From NCBI GenBank assembly GCA_021299855.1, contig JAJTEY010000022.1, positions 1 through 32,450 of the forward strand: DNA of 32,450 bases, written 5' to 3'. This DNA is from Bacteroidota bacterium. Lineage in GTDB: Bacteria; Bacteroidota; Bacteroidia; Palsa-965. Below the pieces are notes generated by a model that had not been told where the DNA came from, ran no database searches, and saw nothing but the letters and a program-made list of their open reading frames with translations. The position numbers and the translations under genes were made by a program. Positions 13,215-20,971 of this stretch are shown piece after piece; the stretch's first letter is position 1; each line of letters opens with the position of its first letter.

Positions 13215-14138
13215 TTACCACAGATATCCGAATAACTCCATCATCCAGGCAATGCCCAAATGAATGATAACTCCGCCCCAGATCGATTTGCTTTCAATAA
13301 CCCAAACACTCAGAAGAATGCCACCAAACAATGAACTTATTGCTTCAGCCGGCGGTTTACCTAAATGGGCGCAAACGTAAAAGAATGCTGCAGGAAGTAT
13401 AATTTGTTTTCCGAGATACTTGGTGAATGCTAAAATCAGAAATCCACGAAAGAAAAACTCCGTTGTAACAAAATCAACTCCGTAACAAGATTCAAACAGC
13501 AAAGTGTAAGCTGTTTGGTTTTCGGTGATTTGTGCAGCGCAAAGAACTTTTTCGGCGAGCGGATAAAATTTTTGAAAGGATGGCTCTACTGCGGCTATCG
13601 CAACTACTGCAGAAAAAATCAGCAGTGTGATCAGATAACCTTTGGGTTTAAGTTGTTTCGTGCTGAAACCATATAAGGGTTGTGTATTTCTATCCATGAA
13701 ATACCAAAAGACGATAACCGGCAATCCTAACGTAAATACGCGGATGACATTATTGATGCATTTCATCCAGAAACGAAATTCCGGAGTGGTGTTGAAGTCT
13801 TGCAGCCAATTTTGATGCTGGTAGAAGTAAATGCGAAATGCGAAAGCACTAACGGCAAAGATGGCTGTGAGCCACAACCCGCGTTGATGAAATGGTTTCT
13901 TATTCGTAGAAAAAGGAATAAGCAAAAGCAAACTACCTATAAATGCGGCAGCATAAAACAGCCAATTAATAATAAACTGTAGATCGCTTTGATTACCACT
14001 TTTGCTGACTACTGCTGCAAACCGAAATTGCTCTTGAAAGTAAACCAACGTCAGGGTAATGACGAGCAGGATAAGAAAGTAACGCTTGTTAAGATCTGTT
14101 TTATAGTAAGTGTAAGCGCTTGACCATAATGCTCGCAT
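13215..14138 (-). CDS. CPBP-family intramembrane protease
   Basis: A 307-residue polytopic membrane protein of the CPBP (CAAX/bacteriocin-processing, Abi) family. Motif 1 reads TTEFFFRGFL (E227, R231), motif 2 FFYVCAHLGKP (H258) and motif 3 GGVIIHLGIAW (H293). The family usually has Glu-Glu at motif 1; here the first is Thr, while the second Glu, the Arg and both His remain, so activity is possible. Eight or so hydrophobic spans are visible. I start at ATG 14138 (MRALWSSAYTYY). The frame is open further upstream, but only from a TTG inside the stem of a strong terminator, so an earlier start would not be transcribed with the body. Substrate unknown. Confidence 0.85.
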   Translation of the reverse strand: MRALWSSAYTYYKTDLNKRYFLILLVITLTLVYFQEQFRFAAVVSKSGNQSDLQFIINWLFYAAAFIGSLLLLIPFSTNKKPFHQRGLWLTAIFAVSAFAFRIYFYQHQNWLQDFNTTPEFRFWMKCINNVIRVFTLGLPVIVFWYFMDRNTQPLYGFSTKQLKPKGYLITLLIFSAVVAIAAVEPSFQKFYPLAEKVLCAAQITENQTAYTLLFESCYGVDFVTTEFFFRGFLILAFTKYLGKQIILPAAFFYVCAHLGKPPAEAISSLFGGILLSVWVIESKSIWGGVIIHLGIAWMMELFGYLW

Positions 14139-14164: not shown

Positions 14165-14202
14165 AAAAAAACAAAGGGCCGCTTCCCCAAACGACCCTTT
14201 GT
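14165..14202 (-). terminator. Strong intrinsic terminator of the small RNA
   Basis: On the minus strand ACAAAGGGTCGTTT pairs with AAGCGGCCCTTTGT (two G-T wobbles) around a GGGG loop, and is followed by seven T (14165-14171). It faces the CPBP gene but ends an upstream transcript, with no protein gene between it and the promoter at 14275-14282. Confidence 0.85.
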
Positions 14203-14270
14203 ACTTGCAGATGTGTTGAACGGTATTCCGTCTAGCTGACTGATCCCAAAACCCTCATGGACAGTACAGC
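14165..14270 (-). ncRNA. Candidate structured small RNA, about 100 nt
   Basis: A TACTTTTG promoter element (14275-14282, minus) is followed about 100 bases later by the strong terminator at 14165-14202, with no protein gene in between. The RNA would fold as a closed domain: TGTACT (14263-14268) pairs perfectly with AGTACA (14200-14205). Inside it are a GUCC/GGAU stem and an ACGG-AAUA-CCGU hairpin. The AGTACA strand shares three bases with the terminator stem, so the two structures might compete. An ATG frame of only eight codons lies inside, too short to weigh. It does not show the SRP RNA GGAAGCAGC motif or a tRNA-like shape, and 6S identity cannot be judged by eye. Confidence 0.6.
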
Positions 14271-14274
14271 GATA

Positions 14275-14282
14275 CAAAAGTA
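14275..14282 (-). promoter_or_regulatory. -7 element for the small RNA
   Basis: Reads TACTTTTG on the minus strand, a perfect TAnnTTTG match. A TTTG 25 bp further upstream is somewhat too far to be an ideal -33 element. Confidence 0.5.
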
Positions 14283-14353
14283 GGAGCAGGTGTTGTATTC
14301 CGCTAGCCAAATTTTAGCAAAGGGTTTGCAAATAATGACCTATTTTAGATCTC

Positions 14354-14407: not shown

Positions 14408-15310
14408 ATGAAAACGTTGCCTTTTAAAATTCCTTTACCGTCTGAAACCTCTATCGTTGTTGAAGAGGAGATTCAGCCGCATTTTTATACGTATTTGCAC
14501 CAGCATCAGGAAGTGCAGATTACGTGGATTTTGAAGGGAGAAGGAACACTACTGGCAGGCAATTTTACGGGAAACTTTGGTTCGGGAGATATCTTTTGGT
14601 TTGGTCCGAATCAGCCGCATGTGTTTCGGTGTGATCCAATTTATTTTCAGAAGAAGAATTGGTTGAAGGCCCAATCGATATCGGTATATTTCAATATCAA
14701 TGAAGCGCAATCTGCTTTAATGGGGTTACCCGAACTGGAACTGCTCAAAAAATTTTCACAGCGATCCTCCAGAGGTTTTCGCATAGAACCGGACGATTAT
14801 GTTGCGATCACGGAAGCATTCCTGAAAATACGAGTTAAACACGGCATTGCACGATTAACGGCATTTTTGGAGTTGATTGATCAAGTGCTGAGCAACAGCA
14901 AACACATTCCTCTATCTGATGAACCTGTCGGGCATAACTTATCAGAAAAAGAAGGAACGCGTATGCATTCCATTTACGATTTTACATTGAAGAATTTTCA
15001 CAAGGACATTTCCGTAGCCGAAGCCGCCGATATCGTACACATGACTCCTGAAGCATTTTGTCGCTTCTTCAAAAAACATACGCGTAAAACATATGTCACG
15101 TTTTTAAATGAAGTACGTGTTGATCACGCGTGTCGTCGACTAAAAAACGCGGACGATAAATTGGTTAGCGAAATTGCCTATTCTTGTGGCTTTGGAAACG
15201 TTTCCCACTTTAATCGTGTGTTCCGAAAAGTCACGGGTAAAACACCGCGTGAATATCAAACACAAGCATTAGCACGTTTTAAAAAGAGCGATTTGCAAGA
15301 GCGTCTATAA
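14408..15310 (+). CDS. AraC-family transcriptional regulator with cupin sensor domain
   Basis: A 300-residue regulator. Residues about 15-110 form a cupin-like ligand domain (HFYTYLHQHQEVQITWILKGEG, then GSGDIFWFGPNQPHVFRCD, with the His residues expected of this fold). Residues about 185-290 form the two-helix-turn-helix AraC domain: ISVAEAADIVHMTPEAFCRFFKKHTRKT for the first HTH and VSEIAYSCGFGNVSHFNRVFRKVTGKTPREY for the second, with the family signature at the end. Such proteins usually activate carbohydrate or stress genes upon ligand binding. No neighbouring catabolic gene points to a ligand. It converges on the kinase operon with an 8-bp gap. The small RNA and CPBP gene are upstream and divergent. 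Confidence 0.92.
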   Translation: MKTLPFKIPLPSETSIVVEEEIQPHFYTYLHQHQEVQITWILKGEGTLLAGNFTGNFGSGDIFWFGPNQPHVFRCDPIYFQKKNWLKAQSISVYFNINEAQSALMGLPELELLKKFSQRSSRGFRIEPDDYVAITEAFLKIRVKHGIARLTAFLELIDQVLSNSKHIPLSDEPVGHNLSEKEGTRMHSIYDFTLKNFHKDISVAEAADIVHMTPEAFCRFFKKHTRKTYVTFLNEVRVDHACRRLKNADDKLVSEIAYSCGFGNVSHFNRVFRKVTGKTPREYQTQALARFKKSDLQERL

Positions 15311-15318
15311 CGCCGCTA

Positions 15319-16752
15319 TTAATTGGCGGAGCGCATGTAGGACATCGTATCAGCAAAGTTCAAATCAGTTACTTCCAACTCCCTGTAAGATGTGATCATT
15401 CCGTTCCGATCAAAACAGATCTCGATACTTACCGTACAATATTGAGTGGCTTCTTTCGATGGGCGATAAACCTGCATATCCATATTGAACGTAACAACAT
15501 GTTCATCGTTAATTTCTTGATGGAAAAACGATTCGGGATTTATCGCATACACCGGATTTTGAAAGTCGGCGTGTATGGCGGCATCCTGAATTTCCTGTAC
15601 TGTAACATCGGATAAACCTATGAACGTGCGAACGGTAGTTTGATAATAATTGCTTGCGTCGAATGCGTTATTAGTTAAATCAGTGTAGTAATTCGAGATG
15701 ATTTGCTCATAATCAGCATTAGACATGAATGCAACCTCGTCAACATACTGGGTAGTTATCTCCTCTTTGGGTTGTGATTCTTTCACCGCTAAAATGACAA
15801 CCACAGCAATCACCAATATAGCAGAAGGAATTATGATGGCCCACCAATTTGTTTTTTCCCCGGATGCAACCGTCTTCGTCTGAGGTTGTGGTGAAACTTT
15901 TTCTTTCGTTGCACCGGCATGCATGCTTTGAGAAAGTGCATGTTGTATGGCGTGTGCAAATTGATCACACGTTTGAATACGACGACTTACATCTTTGGAT
16001 GTTGCAGCCTCAATGACATATTCAATATGCAAAGGAACAGCCGGATATACTTCCGATGCTCTAGGCAACGGCACACTCACAATCTTATTAAACACCTCAA
16101 ACTCTGAGGTCATTCCATCGTACGGACATTGTCCCGTAAGCATTTGGTAAAACGTAACGCCAAGCGAATAAATATCGCTGCGTACATCCGCCGGTTCACC
16201 TTTTACTTGTTCCGGACTCATGTAGTAGACCGTACCCATCTGTGTCCCAGTGCGCGTGAGTTTCGCATTGCTGTCGTTGAGCAATTTGGCAATACCGAAA
16301 TCCAGAATTTTAATTTGACCTTCGTTCGTGATTAAAATGTTGGAAGGTTTAATGTCGCGATGAACAATGTTTTTACCATGTGCAAAAGAAAATGCAGATA
16401 GAATTTGTAACATCCACGCTGAAGCTTTTTCAAAAGGTATCGGCCCTGAAACATTTCTAATGTAGTCGTCCAGCGGTGTGCCATCAACGTATTCAAGAAT
16501 CAGGTACAAGCCTTCACTATCCTCGTAATAATCGATAAGATTAACGATTCCGGGATGTTGCAATTGCACTAAAAGTGCAGCTTCGTTTTTGAAACGTAAA
16601 CGTAATTGTTCATTACGTACCAAATGAGCATGCAACGATTTGATCGCCACTTTTCTTGAAAGATGCGTATGCTCTGCTAACCATACCGCCCCCATTCCTC
16701 CTTCACCAATCAGTGAAAGAATACGGTACTGTAAAATCTGTTTGCCAATCAT
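15319..16752 (-). CDS. Membrane Ser/Thr protein kinase, last gene of the FHA operon
   Basis: A 477-residue Hanks-type kinase. The catalytic domain (about 8-272) has the glycine loop GEGGMGAVW, catalytic K38 in VAIKSL, HRDIKPSN (D134), DFGIAK (152-157) and SPEQ (180-183), all intact. The activation loop is Thr-rich (KLTRTGTQMGTVYY), typical of autophosphorylation. After a linker comes one membrane span (about 304-323). Then there is a 150-residue extracytoplasmic domain whose start (YEQIISNYYTDLTNNAFD) suggests an NTF2-like fold, an inference only. By topology the outer domain could sense and the inner kinase phosphorylate the operon's FHA-linked targets. It sits 9 bp after the kinase-TonB gene and is close to it in the kinase domain, suggesting duplication. 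Confidence 0.92.
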   Translation of the reverse strand: MIGKQILQYRILSLIGEGGMGAVWLAEHTHLSRKVAIKSLHAHLVRNEQLRLRFKNEAALLVQLQHPGIVNLIDYYEDSEGLYLILEYVDGTPLDDYIRNVSGPIPFEKASAWMLQILSAFSFAHGKNIVHRDIKPSNILITNEGQIKILDFGIAKLLNDSNAKLTRTGTQMGTVYYMSPEQVKGEPADVRSDIYSLGVTFYQMLTGQCPYDGMTSEFEVFNKIVSVPLPRASEVYPAVPLHIEYVIEAATSKDVSRRIQTCDQFAHAIQHALSQSMHAGATKEKVSPQPQTKTVASGEKTNWWAIIIPSAILVIAVVVILAVKESQPKEEITTQYVDEVAFMSNADYEQIISNYYTDLTNNAFDASNYYQTTVRTFIGLSDVTVQEIQDAAIHADFQNPVYAINPESFFHQEINDEHVVTFNMDMQVYRPSKEATQYCTVSIEICFDRNGMITSYRELEVTDLNFADTMSYMRSAN

Positions 16753-16761
16753 GTGCTAAAT

Positions 16762-18555
16762 TTATAACTGGAATTTGATTGGAATTTTCTGATCGGTACG
16801 AACGGACTGTCCTCCAATTTTACCCGGATTCCATGCCGGCATTGACTTTACAAGACGAATCGCTTCTTTCGTTAAGCCCGGTCCGTTTTTCACTTCAACG
16901 GATGCGCGGACATTAGAAAGGCGACCATCTTTTTCGACAGTTGCAACAATCATTACGGTCCCTGTAATTTCATTTTCGCGTTCGTAAGAAGGATACTTCA
17001 AGTTGCGCGAAATGAAAGCAGACATGGCGTCGTAGCCTCCGGAGTATGTTGGCTTTACATCCACATCATAGGTCTGGTAAACAGTTCCACTGCCGGGAGT
17101 TGGCTCCGGTTGTGGTTTGGTTGTTGGACCCGTAACGACTGTTGGTACCGGTGGTGGAGGAACAACTGCCAAGCCCTTATCGGCTTCGGCAATCTTAGTG
17201 TCAACAGCTGTGTTCGATGGATCCACTTGTTTCGCTGCAGTATAGGCGTCCTTCGCTTCTTTCCATTTCTTTTGCTTTAACAGTTTATCGCCGACCTGAA
17301 TCAAGCTGTCAGCACGCTTTTTCAAAGCTTCTGCATTGCCTTTATCCACAAGCGACTGAGCAACTGCCTTATCAGTACTGTCTTTGGTTTTTGCTTCAGC
17401 AATACTGTCGTTTTTGCGAACGGTTTCTAAACTGTCCTTCTTGCGCTTCTCGGCTATAGCAGTATCTTCATTGCTTCCTCCGGAATTTATAACCACGATT
17501 ACGATTATCGCTATAACAGCAAGAACACCTCCGATAATACCAATCATGTTACCGTTACTCTTCTTTGCGCTTGGTGGCGCGTCAGCAAGAGCGGCATCAC
17601 TTTGGTAAGTAGGCTTTGGTGTTGGTGTAACTTGAGGATTCGTGCGATCAAACGCAACAGTTTTTTCAAAATCAGGTTGCTGTTCAACTACAACGGTTTT
17701 TTCAAAGGGAGCAGGAGCAGCCGGTGTGCGTTCGATGTTTTCTACAGCTGCTAAAAACTCACGACAGCTTTGGAAACGATCAGCAGGATTTTTAGCAGTT
17801 GCCTTTGCTAACACTTGCTCCATGGCTGAACTTACAGCAGGATAAACCGTGCTCGCATTGGGCAACGGTTCATTGACGATCTTATTGTAGATCTCATACT
17901 CCGTTGTTAAATCTTTGTAAGGATTGGTTCCGGTTAACAACTGGAAAAACGTGACCCCGAGCGAATAGATATCGGAGCGCTGATCTACATTTTCACCTCG
18001 AACTTGTTCGGGACACATATAATAAATTGTCCCTACCTGAGTTCCTGTCTTCGTTAACTTCTTATCAACCTCCGATAAAAGTTTCGCAATACCGAAATCA
18101 AGAATCTTACAACGCTCGTCTTTGGTTAATAAAATGTTGGATGGCTTAATATCACGGTGTACAATTCCCTGATCATGTGCATATGCAAATCCGGTTAAGA
18201 TTTGCTTCATTAATTTAAGTGCACGTTCTTCCGGAACAGGACCAGTTACTTTACGGATATAATCATCCAACGCTGTGCCGTCCACGAATTCCATAACGAG
18301 GTACAATCCGTCTGCTTCCTCCAGGTAATCGTACAATGCAACAATTGCAGGATGCTGCAAATGAGCCATCGTAGAAGCTTCTTTCTTAAAACGCTCACGA
18401 ATACTTTCGTTGTTCGCTAATCGTTCGTGCAATGATTTGATAGCCACCATACGACCCAACTTCACATGCTCAGCCAGGTACACATTACCCATGCCGCCTT
18501 CACCAATCATCTTTTTGATTTCGTAATGTAAAATCTGCTTACCGATTAAACTCAT
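16762..18555 (-). CDS. Ser/Thr protein kinase-TonB C-terminal domain fusion
   Basis: A 597-residue multidomain protein. The kinase domain (about 10-275) is complete: GEGGMGNVY, K40, HRDIKPSN (D135), DFGIAK (153-158). A Pro-rich cytoplasmic linker carries two FEKTV motifs (284-288 and 297-301), candidate phosphothreonine sites. One membrane span follows (about 337-356), then a Lys/Asp-rich helical stretch and a TPR-like pair (about 418-460), a Pro-rich spacer, and a TonB C-terminal domain (about 503-597: YPSYERENEITGTVMIVATVEKDG, with the closing SMPAWNPGKIGGQ). TonB domains contact outer-membrane partners in the periplasm. No exbB/exbD is present here, so energy coupling by this protein is doubtful; a sensor or structural role fits better. 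Confidence 0.92.
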   Translation of the reverse strand: MSLIGKQILHYEIKKMIGEGGMGNVYLAEHVKLGRMVAIKSLHERLANNESIRERFKKEASTMAHLQHPAIVALYDYLEEADGLYLVMEFVDGTALDDYIRKVTGPVPEERALKLMKQILTGFAYAHDQGIVHRDIKPSNILLTKDERCKILDFGIAKLLSEVDKKLTKTGTQVGTIYYMCPEQVRGENVDQRSDIYSLGVTFFQLLTGTNPYKDLTTEYEIYNKIVNEPLPNASTVYPAVSSAMEQVLAKATAKNPADRFQSCREFLAAVENIERTPAAPAPFEKTVVVEQQPDFEKTVAFDRTNPQVTPTPKPTYQSDAALADAPPSAKKSNGNMIGIIGGVLAVIAIIVIVVINSGGSNEDTAIAEKRKKDSLETVRKNDSIAEAKTKDSTDKAVAQSLVDKGNAEALKKRADSLIQVGDKLLKQKKWKEAKDAYTAAKQVDPSNTAVDTKIAEADKGLAVVPPPPVPTVVTGPTTKPQPEPTPGSGTVYQTYDVDVKPTYSGGYDAMSAFISRNLKYPSYERENEITGTVMIVATVEKDGRLSNVRASVEVKNGPGLTKEAIRLVKSMPAWNPGKIGGQSVRTDQKIPIKFQL

Positions 18556-18589
18556 GTCTTACTGATATTGAATGAATATTGTATTGCTT

Positions 18590-20971
18590 TTATTTCCCGC
18601 CCATTCCCGGGATAGAATCTTTCTTTTTCAATGCTATATAAATTCCCACAATGAAAATCAATGAAATGATTCCAACTGCATAATAGTCTAATGACATCTC
18701 TCCCGCACTTTCAAAACGTTCAGTGTAATCCTTATAAAATTGCTTGTGGAGAATTTCAACTGAACTGACGTTAACAGTATCTGTCACCGGTTCAGGAATA
18801 ATTAACTTGCCCGGATTGGCACTGTCCATCTTAATTTGGGAAGTGTCTATTTTCATGACTTCCGCTACTACAGTATCTTGTAAAATGCTGAAGCCTTCTG
18901 TTCCCCAACGCGATAATGTTCCGTAACTGATAAATTCAACCAACGGATTTTTAATTTTTGCAACAAGACCTGCAAGCATAATTTGCGGAATCAACGCTAA
19001 TGGAACAAGCGTCATTACTTTCTCCGCAGTATCCACAACTGCAGATAACAACAAGCCCATCAATGTTGAGCTCAACGCCAATACCAGCATCCAGTTGAAT
19101 GAACCCATCGGATCGTTCCATTCCGGATTATCGCCGGAATAGTTAAGGTAAACGATACCCACAAACAACAACGATTGCACTGCGCTGAAGAATCCTAACA
19201 CGAATAATTTCGACATCATGTATGTCGGAATTAACATGTTGAACATTCGTTCACGTTTGTATATCGGAAGTTCGCTTACGATTTCACGCGCTGCATTATT
19301 CGCTCCAAACCAAATAGCGCAGATAGCCATCAAGAATGGAACCGATTGCACCACGTCTTTGAAGATCAAACAAATTAGTCCGGCAATAATCGGCGCTTGC
19401 GCAATCATGATAATAGTATTAACACGATCGTTTGTCTTGATTTTGAAATAACGCGCTGTTAACCACCGCAACTGATCGAACCACGAAACTTTGGTCCGCG
19501 CAGGTTTTTCTGCAGGCGGTTCCGGAACAACGTCAGGATGCGGATGCTCGCGCTCGTATTTTTCAATCCACGGCTTCGAACGATCTCCCGCGATGTTAGC
19601 GTACACATCAACCGAATTTTTAACGTTGAAATAATTCTTGTAACCGTCGGTACTGCCATAGTAAACCAGGTGTCCGCCTTCTGCAAGGAACATCACGGAA
19701 TCCATGTAGTTCAAATCTTCCGGCTTGTGAGTAACCATAACGACGGTGGTGCCGCGTTGTGCTAATCCGCGCAGAATCCCTAAAAATTCTTCGATCGTTT
19801 GCGGATCGAGTGGCGAAGTAGGTTCGTCCAAAAAGATCACCAAAGGATCAGTAAGCAACTCAACAGCAATTGAAACACGTTTGCGCTGGCCTCCGGAAAT
19901 TTTTCCGACCAGATTTTTGCGAATATGTGCAATGTTCAGATCCTGCAAAACCTGATCAATTTTTTCTGCAATTAATTCCGGGTTCGCATTTTGTAATCGC
20001 AATCGCGCTGCATAGTATAATGATTGTTCCACCGTCAATTCACGGTGTACAATATCATCCTGCGGAACATATCCAATTTGTGTTTTTAAGAATTCATAAT
20101 TCTGAATTAATTCCAGATCGAATAGATAAACGGCACCACTCGTGATGGGAGCATCGCCGTTCAAAGCTTTCATCAATGTGGATTTACCGCATCCCGAAGG
20201 ACCCATAATTCCCATTAGTGAACGCGACGGAATAGTAAAGGACATTTCTTTCAATCCCTTATATCCGTTCGGATAGGCTTTTTCAATACGCTCTGCACGT
20301 ATCGCGACATCTTTCGAAATGTCTTTCGCTTCTCCTTTTAATTTCATTTTGAAGCGACCAACCAAAATCACATCACGCTCGGTGACTTTAGTGGCGCCCG
20401 TGATTCGCTTGCCGTTAACATAAGTGCCGTTCAGTGAATTCAGATCTTTAACCTGAAAACTTCCGTCACTTAATTTTTCTATTGCTGCATGACGACGACT
20501 AACAGAAGCATGATTGAAAACGACATCACACTCTGCATTACGTCCAATTACGACAACATTTTTGTTGGCGAACTTGTCCATGATGTTCGTGTGTTCGCCG
20601 GTGGATTTGTCATCCACCGCGGCACCTGCAGCATTAAACTGTGATTCGTCGCCATTAACCAATAAGCGCAACGACTTATTGCCGGAAAACCAGATTTCAT
20701 CACCAGGATTTATTTTTACCGGAACACCAACATTCAAACGATTGCCGTTTACAAACGTACCGTTCGAACTTCCGATGTCCTGTAACAACAATTGTCCCTG
20801 CGTGTCACAAATAATTTGTGCGTGCTGACGAGAGACCGTGTTGTCCGGAATTAAAATATCTACCTGACCTTCTGCTTTACCGATGGTCAGTACAAGATGC
20901 GATCCTTTAATCAGTTTTACTTTCCGCAGTAACTGATTTCCGGCGACGAATAACAGTTTGATTTCGTTCAT
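18590..20971 (-). CDS. FHA-FHA-ABC exporter (ABCG-type half-transporter)
   Basis: A 793-residue fusion. FHA-1 (about 22-104) has VSRQHAQI and SSNGTFVNG, but the usual GR is GK (31-32). FHA-2 (about 138-212) is canonical (IGRNAECDV, SRRHAAI, LNGTYVNG). The ATPase (about 225-465) has Walker A GPSGCGKST, signature SGGQRKR and Walker B VIFLDEPTSPLD. About six membrane spans of the ABC-2 permease fold follow (about 525-785). The same layout occurs in mycobacterial Rv1747, whose activity is controlled by the kinase PknF through FHA binding. A linker motif HTNI (T128) lies between the FHA domains. Next to two kinases, regulation by phosphothreonine docking is likely. The exported substrate is unknown. 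Confidence 0.93.
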   Translation of the reverse strand: MNEIKLLFVAGNQLLRKVKLIKGSHLVLTIGKAEGQVDILIPDNTVSRQHAQIICDTQGQLLLQDIGSSNGTFVNGNRLNVGVPVKINPGDEIWFSGNKSLRLLVNGDESQFNAAGAAVDDKSTGEHTNIMDKFANKNVVVIGRNAECDVVFNHASVSRRHAAIEKLSDGSFQVKDLNSLNGTYVNGKRITGATKVTERDVILVGRFKMKLKGEAKDISKDVAIRAERIEKAYPNGYKGLKEMSFTIPSRSLMGIMGPSGCGKSTLMKALNGDAPITSGAVYLFDLELIQNYEFLKTQIGYVPQDDIVHRELTVEQSLYYAARLRLQNANPELIAEKIDQVLQDLNIAHIRKNLVGKISGGQRKRVSIAVELLTDPLVIFLDEPTSPLDPQTIEEFLGILRGLAQRGTTVVMVTHKPEDLNYMDSVMFLAEGGHLVYYGSTDGYKNYFNVKNSVDVYANIAGDRSKPWIEKYEREHPHPDVVPEPPAEKPARTKVSWFDQLRWLTARYFKIKTNDRVNTIIMIAQAPIIAGLICLIFKDVVQSVPFLMAICAIWFGANNAAREIVSELPIYKRERMFNMLIPTYMMSKLFVLGFFSAVQSLLFVGIVYLNYSGDNPEWNDPMGSFNWMLVLALSSTLMGLLLSAVVDTAEKVMTLVPLALIPQIMLAGLVAKIKNPLVEFISYGTLSRWGTEGFSILQDTVVAEVMKIDTSQIKMDSANPGKLIIPEPVTDTVNVSSVEILHKQFYKDYTERFESAGEMSLDYYAVGIISLIFIVGIYIALKKKDSIPGMGGK

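Follow-up and report, generated by a model that had tools for sequence, protein, structure and literature searches.

A small RNA (sRNA) encoded back-to-back with an AraC-family regulator gene probably acts in trans, under the control of that regulator, by pairing with the RNA of a cysteine attenuator. We consider this reading, which was built from comparative sequence analysis, a likely one. The sRNA is previously undescribed and comes from an uncultured group of Bacteroidota. The window (i.e. the whole stretch of DNA that was analysed, 32,450 nucleotides) contains the following features:

13215 to 14138, minus strand: CAAX-protease-like (Rce1-like) gene, 3' of the terminator and outside the system.
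14165 to 14202, minus strand: intrinsic terminator with a 14-bp stem and a U-run; the stem covaries.
14165 to 14272, minus strand: small RNA of ~105 nt, with its 5' end approximated by reference to the -7 box; homologues in genomes G002, G003, G005 and G006.
14206 to 14222, minus strand: conserved pairing stretch CGUUCAACACAUCUGCA, complementary to the cysteine-leader site.
14219 to 14232, minus strand: hairpin P2, which ends where the conserved stretch begins; an equivalent hairpin was folded in five of five homologues.
14235 to 14270, minus strand: 5' hairpin P1, obtained by folding, with GGGUUUUGG at 14254-14246.
14275 to 14282, minus strand: -7 box TACTTTTG (perfect TAnnTTTG), conserved at five of five sRNA loci.
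14311 to 14340, minus strand: candidate AraC-type operator GGTCA-N6-GCAAA-N6-GCTAAAAT (GGTCATTATTTGCAAACCCTTTGCTAAAAT in the window), between the AraC gene and the sRNA promoter.
14408 to 15310, plus strand: AraC-family regulator (domain matches HTH_18 and AraC_binding), divergent from the sRNA.

Further along the window (15319-20971), two serine/threonine kinase-like proteins are encoded beside an FHA-ABC transporter fusion, as judged from the translations.

A sequence-only reading of this DNA had proposed a small RNA without family assignment that has a promoter and a terminator of its own, and this proposal was borne out: the RNA is conserved in the genus, its terminator covaries, and no Rfam family matched it. 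The perfect -7 element (a TAnnTTTG box at 14282-14275, minus strand), the inner hairpins (two by folding, P1 and P2) and the strong terminator (a 14-bp stem and a T-run at 14202-14165) were all recovered as well. The same reading had closed the RNA with a TGTACT/AGTACA pairing, whose closing strand overlaps the terminator stem by three bases, and had suggested that this could act as a switch. The pairing exists and overlaps the terminator stem by ACA, but neither the pairing nor the switch is supported by energy or conservation. Forcing the pairing costs ~9 kcal/mol (-30.1 versus -39.3 unforced), it competes with the 5' hairpin of the window sRNA, and the only counterparts in the homologues were unrelated 5-bp candidates of the size expected by chance. 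The feature that the sequence-only reading missed is the conserved, largely single-stranded stretch before the terminator.

The window sRNA folds better than its dinucleotide shuffles (z = -4.0, with 0 of 200 shuffles as good), and this is due to the terminator alone, since the fold without the terminator gave a z of -0.8. The conserved stretch, directly 5' of the terminator, is largely single-stranded; the folds predicted for G002 and G005 pair part of it. No open frame common to the sRNA homologues was found across the genomes.

Searches with known families returned nothing at the locus. None of the Rfam 15 families, including Flavo-1 and Bacteroidales-1, reached its gathering score, and relaxing the E value to 10 added just two matches, both to unrelated families, at chance level and off the strand of the RNA. 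The homologous loci of the relatives likewise gave nothing convincing in Rfam. The 6S-Flavo model (RF01685) produced a single 19-bit match genome-wide, located elsewhere, and nothing at the locus even with E values of up to 10; membership of 6S-Flavo is defined by a covariance-model match >85 bits. The RNA fits none of the 6S, Flavo-1 and Bacteroidales-1 families that had been suggested for comparison. A BLASTN search with the region recovered no homologue over the full length among 59 relatives. The homology surfaced through synteny with the AraC gene rather than by direct DNA search; synteny with the CAAX-protease-like gene was also tried as a route to homologues, and nothing was gained.

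Orthologues of the AraC-family gene, 72-78% identical, are present in five other genomes of the genus, and in four of these (G002, G003, G005 and G006) a homologous RNA lies divergently beside the gene. With the window included, the regulator stands back-to-back with the sRNA in five of the six genomes that have the regulator. The five sRNA copies share a TAnnTTTG box and a core like CUCAACACAYCAGCA, followed by a terminator; GGGUUUUGG was found in all of them except G005. Built from just the window and G002, a covariance model of the 3' portion located the remaining three copies at the equivalent locus (E values of 4e-7 to 2e-6). The five-sequence model identified one strong copy per genome, always beside AraC (5e-11 to 5e-16), and nothing convincing in ~290 other sampled Bacteroidia. 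An absence of conservation in relatives would have counted against the sequence-only reading; instead, four other genomes have homologues in the corresponding position. It had also pointed to covariation across relatives. The terminator stem is paired in all five sequences (100% of cells) and 5 of its 10 pairs changed on both sides, a count from five genomes of one genus that favours this stem because the alignment was fitted to it. G001, a complete genome with the AraC gene, has no such RNA beside AraC and no strong model match genome-wide.

Weak R2 matches outside the genus proved to be terminators alone or the ATCAACACATCAGCACATCAGC repeat. Other Bacteroidota contain intergenic repeats, CTTCGACTTCGCTCAGGG (L068 ~1440-1570) and ATCAACACATCAGCACATCAGCACATT-like runs (also in L057 and L059), that partly resemble the pairing stretch.

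Genomes differ in what follows the terminator: the window has the CAAX-protease-like gene, G002 a gene for a protein with a Por-secretion tail and G006 one for an astacin-like protease, and the neighbouring gene of G003 and G005 is convergent. Since the downstream genes are not conserved, the RNA is best described as a stand-alone sRNA, not as a leader. The riboswitch and cis-leader class requires a conserved downstream gene on the same strand, and the genomes did not show one. In the window, the CAAX-protease-like gene does begin ~30 nt past the terminator on the same strand, as it would if the RNA were a cis-acting 5' leader or riboswitch of that gene with the terminator as its switch. However, orthologues of this gene in other genomes lack the RNA, the RNA tracks AraC while its downstream neighbours vary or are convergent, and the competing stem that had been proposed has neither energy nor conservation in its favour, which makes a cis leader extremely improbable. 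A predicted promoter and terminator of its own, independent of the downstream gene, are what the RNA shares with trans-acting base-pairing sRNAs.

All six genus genomes with the AraC gene keep a GTCA-like element followed by GCAAA-N6-GCTAAAAT (GTTAAAAT in G001) between the gene and the promoter. This conserved site is a probable AraC-type operator. Its half-sites are ~11 bp apart, as would be expected of a site for the two helices of an AraC-type protein. In each of the five genomes with the sRNA, the -7 box starts 28-29 nt after the site, a spacing that was reproduced by only 0-3 of 1000 shuffles per genome. No -33 box was found at the usual distance from the -7 box, which would fit an activator-dependent promoter.

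A pattern search was used to look for targets of the conserved stretch, with up to 3 mismatches in 12 genomes. One orthologous intergenic place was matched in G002, G003, G005 and G006, in the orientation opposite to transcription, and this place is a cysteine leader. No other intergenic place recurred between genomes. The remaining matches were scattered and mostly inside open reading frames; each complete genus genome had 2-10 copies, and of the inspected ones outside the sRNA and leader nearly all lay in open reading frames. We also considered whether the stretch is a mere Bacteroidota intergenic repeat of the ATCAACACATCAGCACATCAGC kind (weak matches L057, L059 and L068), and rejected this because copies are few genome-wide and the orthologous leader recurs in four genomes.

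The leader encodes a peptide with MCMCCC or a similar run of cysteines, followed by an intrinsic terminator, and is present in all four complete sRNA-carrying genomes (G002, G003, G005 and G006). It precedes genes for sulphite reductase, sirohaem synthesis, TauE and homoserine dehydrogenase in G002 and G003, homoserine dehydrogenase in G006, and tRNA-Cys (anticodon read by eye), peroxiredoxin and homoserine dehydrogenase in G005. If the ribosome is taken to stall on the cysteine codons, a competing antiterminator (CGGGAG:CUCCCG) folds. With tandem cysteine codons, an antiterminator that competes with a terminator and sulphur genes downstream, the predicted target thus has the features of a ribosome-mediated cysteine attenuator, as far as sequence and modelled folds can tell. 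No Rfam family reached its gathering score at the four genus leader loci, and the leader motif was not found in viral contigs. Leader peptides with cysteine codons (MCMCCC etc.) and intrinsic attenuators also occur across Bacteroidia families (L104, L105, L106, L107, L116 and L142). In G001, a second, tandem leader with methionine and cysteine codons (MMNSMMCCALS*) and its own terminator (L143; G001:C37:32239-32325) lies upstream of the cysteine leader L104.

Within the leaders of the four genomes, UGUUGGUGUGUUGAGCGAAGCCCUCCCGG is invariant; it starts 7-10 nt past the leader stop codon and reaches the terminator stem. The site is unchanged over ~30 nt while its flanks vary. When each genome's own sRNA stretch was paired with its own leader site, 17-18 uninterrupted pairs were obtained (-24 to -30 kcal/mol), and cofolding placed this 17-18 bp helix in all four genomes. 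The stretch of the window sRNA forms 13 pairs with the leaders of the relatives. Control cysteine leaders without the site gave 7-12 bp with the sRNA stretch. Across samples of 0.25-0.85 Mb from each genome, the second-best helix that the stretch can form had 11-14 bp, in a listing that omits the full-length leader helix of G002 and G006, which was computed separately. Moreover, the pairing stretch is duplicated in the G002 sRNA (L034 2514-2674), where the copies form 17 and 18 bp with the leader, and the G003 sRNA (L035 1226-1365) has a second, shorter pairing stretch of 13 bp.

Energies of the full-length molecules were less telling. For the whole sRNA, chance helices of similar stability exist elsewhere and involve other, unconserved segments of the molecule. 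When the entire sRNA core was run through duplexfold, its energies did not clearly beat those of shuffles. Unlike this whole-length comparison, scoring the conserved stretch alone was informative. The argument for the sRNA and leader draws on conservation and not on energy alone. Complementarity between a conserved stretch and a conserved, predicted target site, as is expected of a trans-acting sRNA, is present in four genomes, and the predicted pairing of the sRNA stretch with the leader RNA of the cysteine attenuator is well supported by genome comparison.

The common sequence might instead be a DNA site for one protein inside both transcription units, with no pairing of RNAs. An identical double-stranded motif is present in both loci and an AraC-type regulator is at hand. 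Yet the motif lies at the transcript ends, directly before the terminators and outside the promoters, and the AraC-type operator at the sRNA promoter differs from it in sequence. Furthermore, the majority of substitutions in the sRNA stretch (C to U and A to G) leave it able to form G-U pairs with the invariant leader, although transitions are common anyway. Together, these points leave the DNA-site explanation very unlikely.

The leader model also finds cysteine leaders in G001, G007, G011, G009, G059 and G092, all of which lack the site. In G001, which is complete and belongs to the same genus, the leader is kept (E = 2e-17), the site is replaced and the sRNA is missing. In the informative genomes, the leader site and the sRNA are present together or absent together. 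No cysteine leader was found in the window's own metagenome-assembled genome (72% complete) or in G004 (66% complete); these absences are uninformative because the genomes are incomplete.

The leader site has a second, weaker partner within the leader itself. All four site-bearing leaders (L071, L072, L086 and L093) begin with UCAACAUG, and none of 111 other open frames carries TCAAC ahead of its ATG. UCAACAUG can pair with the leader site over 8-10 bp in three of these four genomes, so the conservation of the site may partly have another cause. This would suit a genuine, conserved sRNA that in fact targets other mRNAs and matches the leader as a by-product, for example of common ancestry of both sequences, and the comparison is limited to five genomes. 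We regard such a by-product as improbable, given 17-18 uninterrupted pairs in four diverged genomes and the joint absence in G001 and in the sampled outgroup leaders.

The relation could also run in reverse: the terminated cysteine-leader RNA, abundant when cysteine is plentiful, would be a sponge that titrates the sRNA from other targets. The complementarity is identical in both readings, leader-derived RNAs have been documented as sRNA sponges in E. coli (PMC7815308), and the conserved stretch could serve several targets with short seeds. However, the pattern search found no second conserved intergenic site, and the two copies of the stretch in the G002 sRNA both match the leader (17 and 18 bp), a better fit to capture of the leader. 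A sponge therefore seems unlikely.

In the preferred reading, in which the sRNA acts on the attenuator, the AraC protein would bind the conserved site and activate the sRNA promoter. The sRNA would then pair with the attenuator RNA in the antiterminator loop, just before the terminator stem, and the pairing would shift the balance between termination and read-through. The sRNA thus probably tunes how the cysteine attenuator switch works. Our guess at the direction is more termination and hence lower sulphur assimilation, and the opposite direction is also possible. We lean to termination because a stiff 17-bp duplex in the loop should hinder the antiterminator; in the predicted complex of sRNA and leader the terminator stays formed, and folding does not predict the direction. 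In view of the internal pairing of UCAACAUG with the site, the sRNA may compete with that pairing. More tentatively, and somewhat short of an even chance, the full arrangement might be a regulator-controlled sRNA that governs a ribosome-mediated attenuator with an intrinsic terminator, giving a second, AraC-sensed input to a switch that is regarded as reading charged tRNA-Cys only, possibly with the GGGUUUUGG loop acting on the 5' arm of the terminator too.

A two-part pairing, in which GGGUUUUGG also binds the terminator arm CGAAGCCCU (~9 pairs on paper), was considered as a candidate and set aside: cofolding does not select it, and GGGUUUUGG is missing from G005.

Amino-acid attenuators of the classical kind are regarded as closed circuits that act only in cis. 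If the preferred reading is true, a trans-acting sRNA that co-evolves with one cysteine attenuator would show how another signal can override or tune such a circuit. It would also provide an sRNA target prediction in Bacteroidota that is supported by shared presence and shared absence in the compared genomes. Searches of open-access papers turned up neither an sRNA that acts on a cysteine attenuator nor a system of this kind in Bacteroidota, an absence that is weak evidence.

Divergent pairs of a regulator and an sRNA are known from enterobacteria as SgrR/SgrS, OxyR/OxyS and GcvA/GcvB. The present locus resembles them in that the regulator stands back-to-back with a stand-alone, terminator-ended sRNA, with a regulator site (here predicted) in between. 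Unlike these pairs, it combines an AraC-type regulator with a Bacteroidota promoter, and there is no sequence relation. In Bacteroides, no obvious homologue of Hfq or ProQ is known (PMC7366714). GibS (PMC7366714) and Rfp18 (PMC9723704) are intergenic Bacteroidota sRNAs with predicted or shown trans effects on mRNAs; as described, they differ in locus and in their targets, which are metabolic or protease mRNAs.

On the target side, uORFC-8-2 upstream of cysS in Rhodobacterales is a cysteine uORF attenuator that likewise combines a leader peptide with tandem cysteine codons and an intrinsic terminator; it belongs to another phylum and precedes other genes, and the description consulted names no sRNA partner (PMC8632094). 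Spot42 base-pairs with tnaCAB over ~15 nt, in an amino-acid operon and past the ORF of a leader peptide, which resembles the pairing predicted here. Its site is 3' of the Rho-dependent terminator region, and the mRNA is repressed (PMC5748587), whereas the site predicted here lies between the leader stop codon and an intrinsic terminator. Finally, the sRNAs at rpoS and SraL at rho act on Rho-dependent premature termination in leaders (PMC6582626). As in these cases, a trans-acting sRNA is predicted to pair in a 5' leader where transcription can stop; unlike these Rho-dependent cases, the target proposed here is a ribosome-mediated attenuator with an intrinsic terminator.
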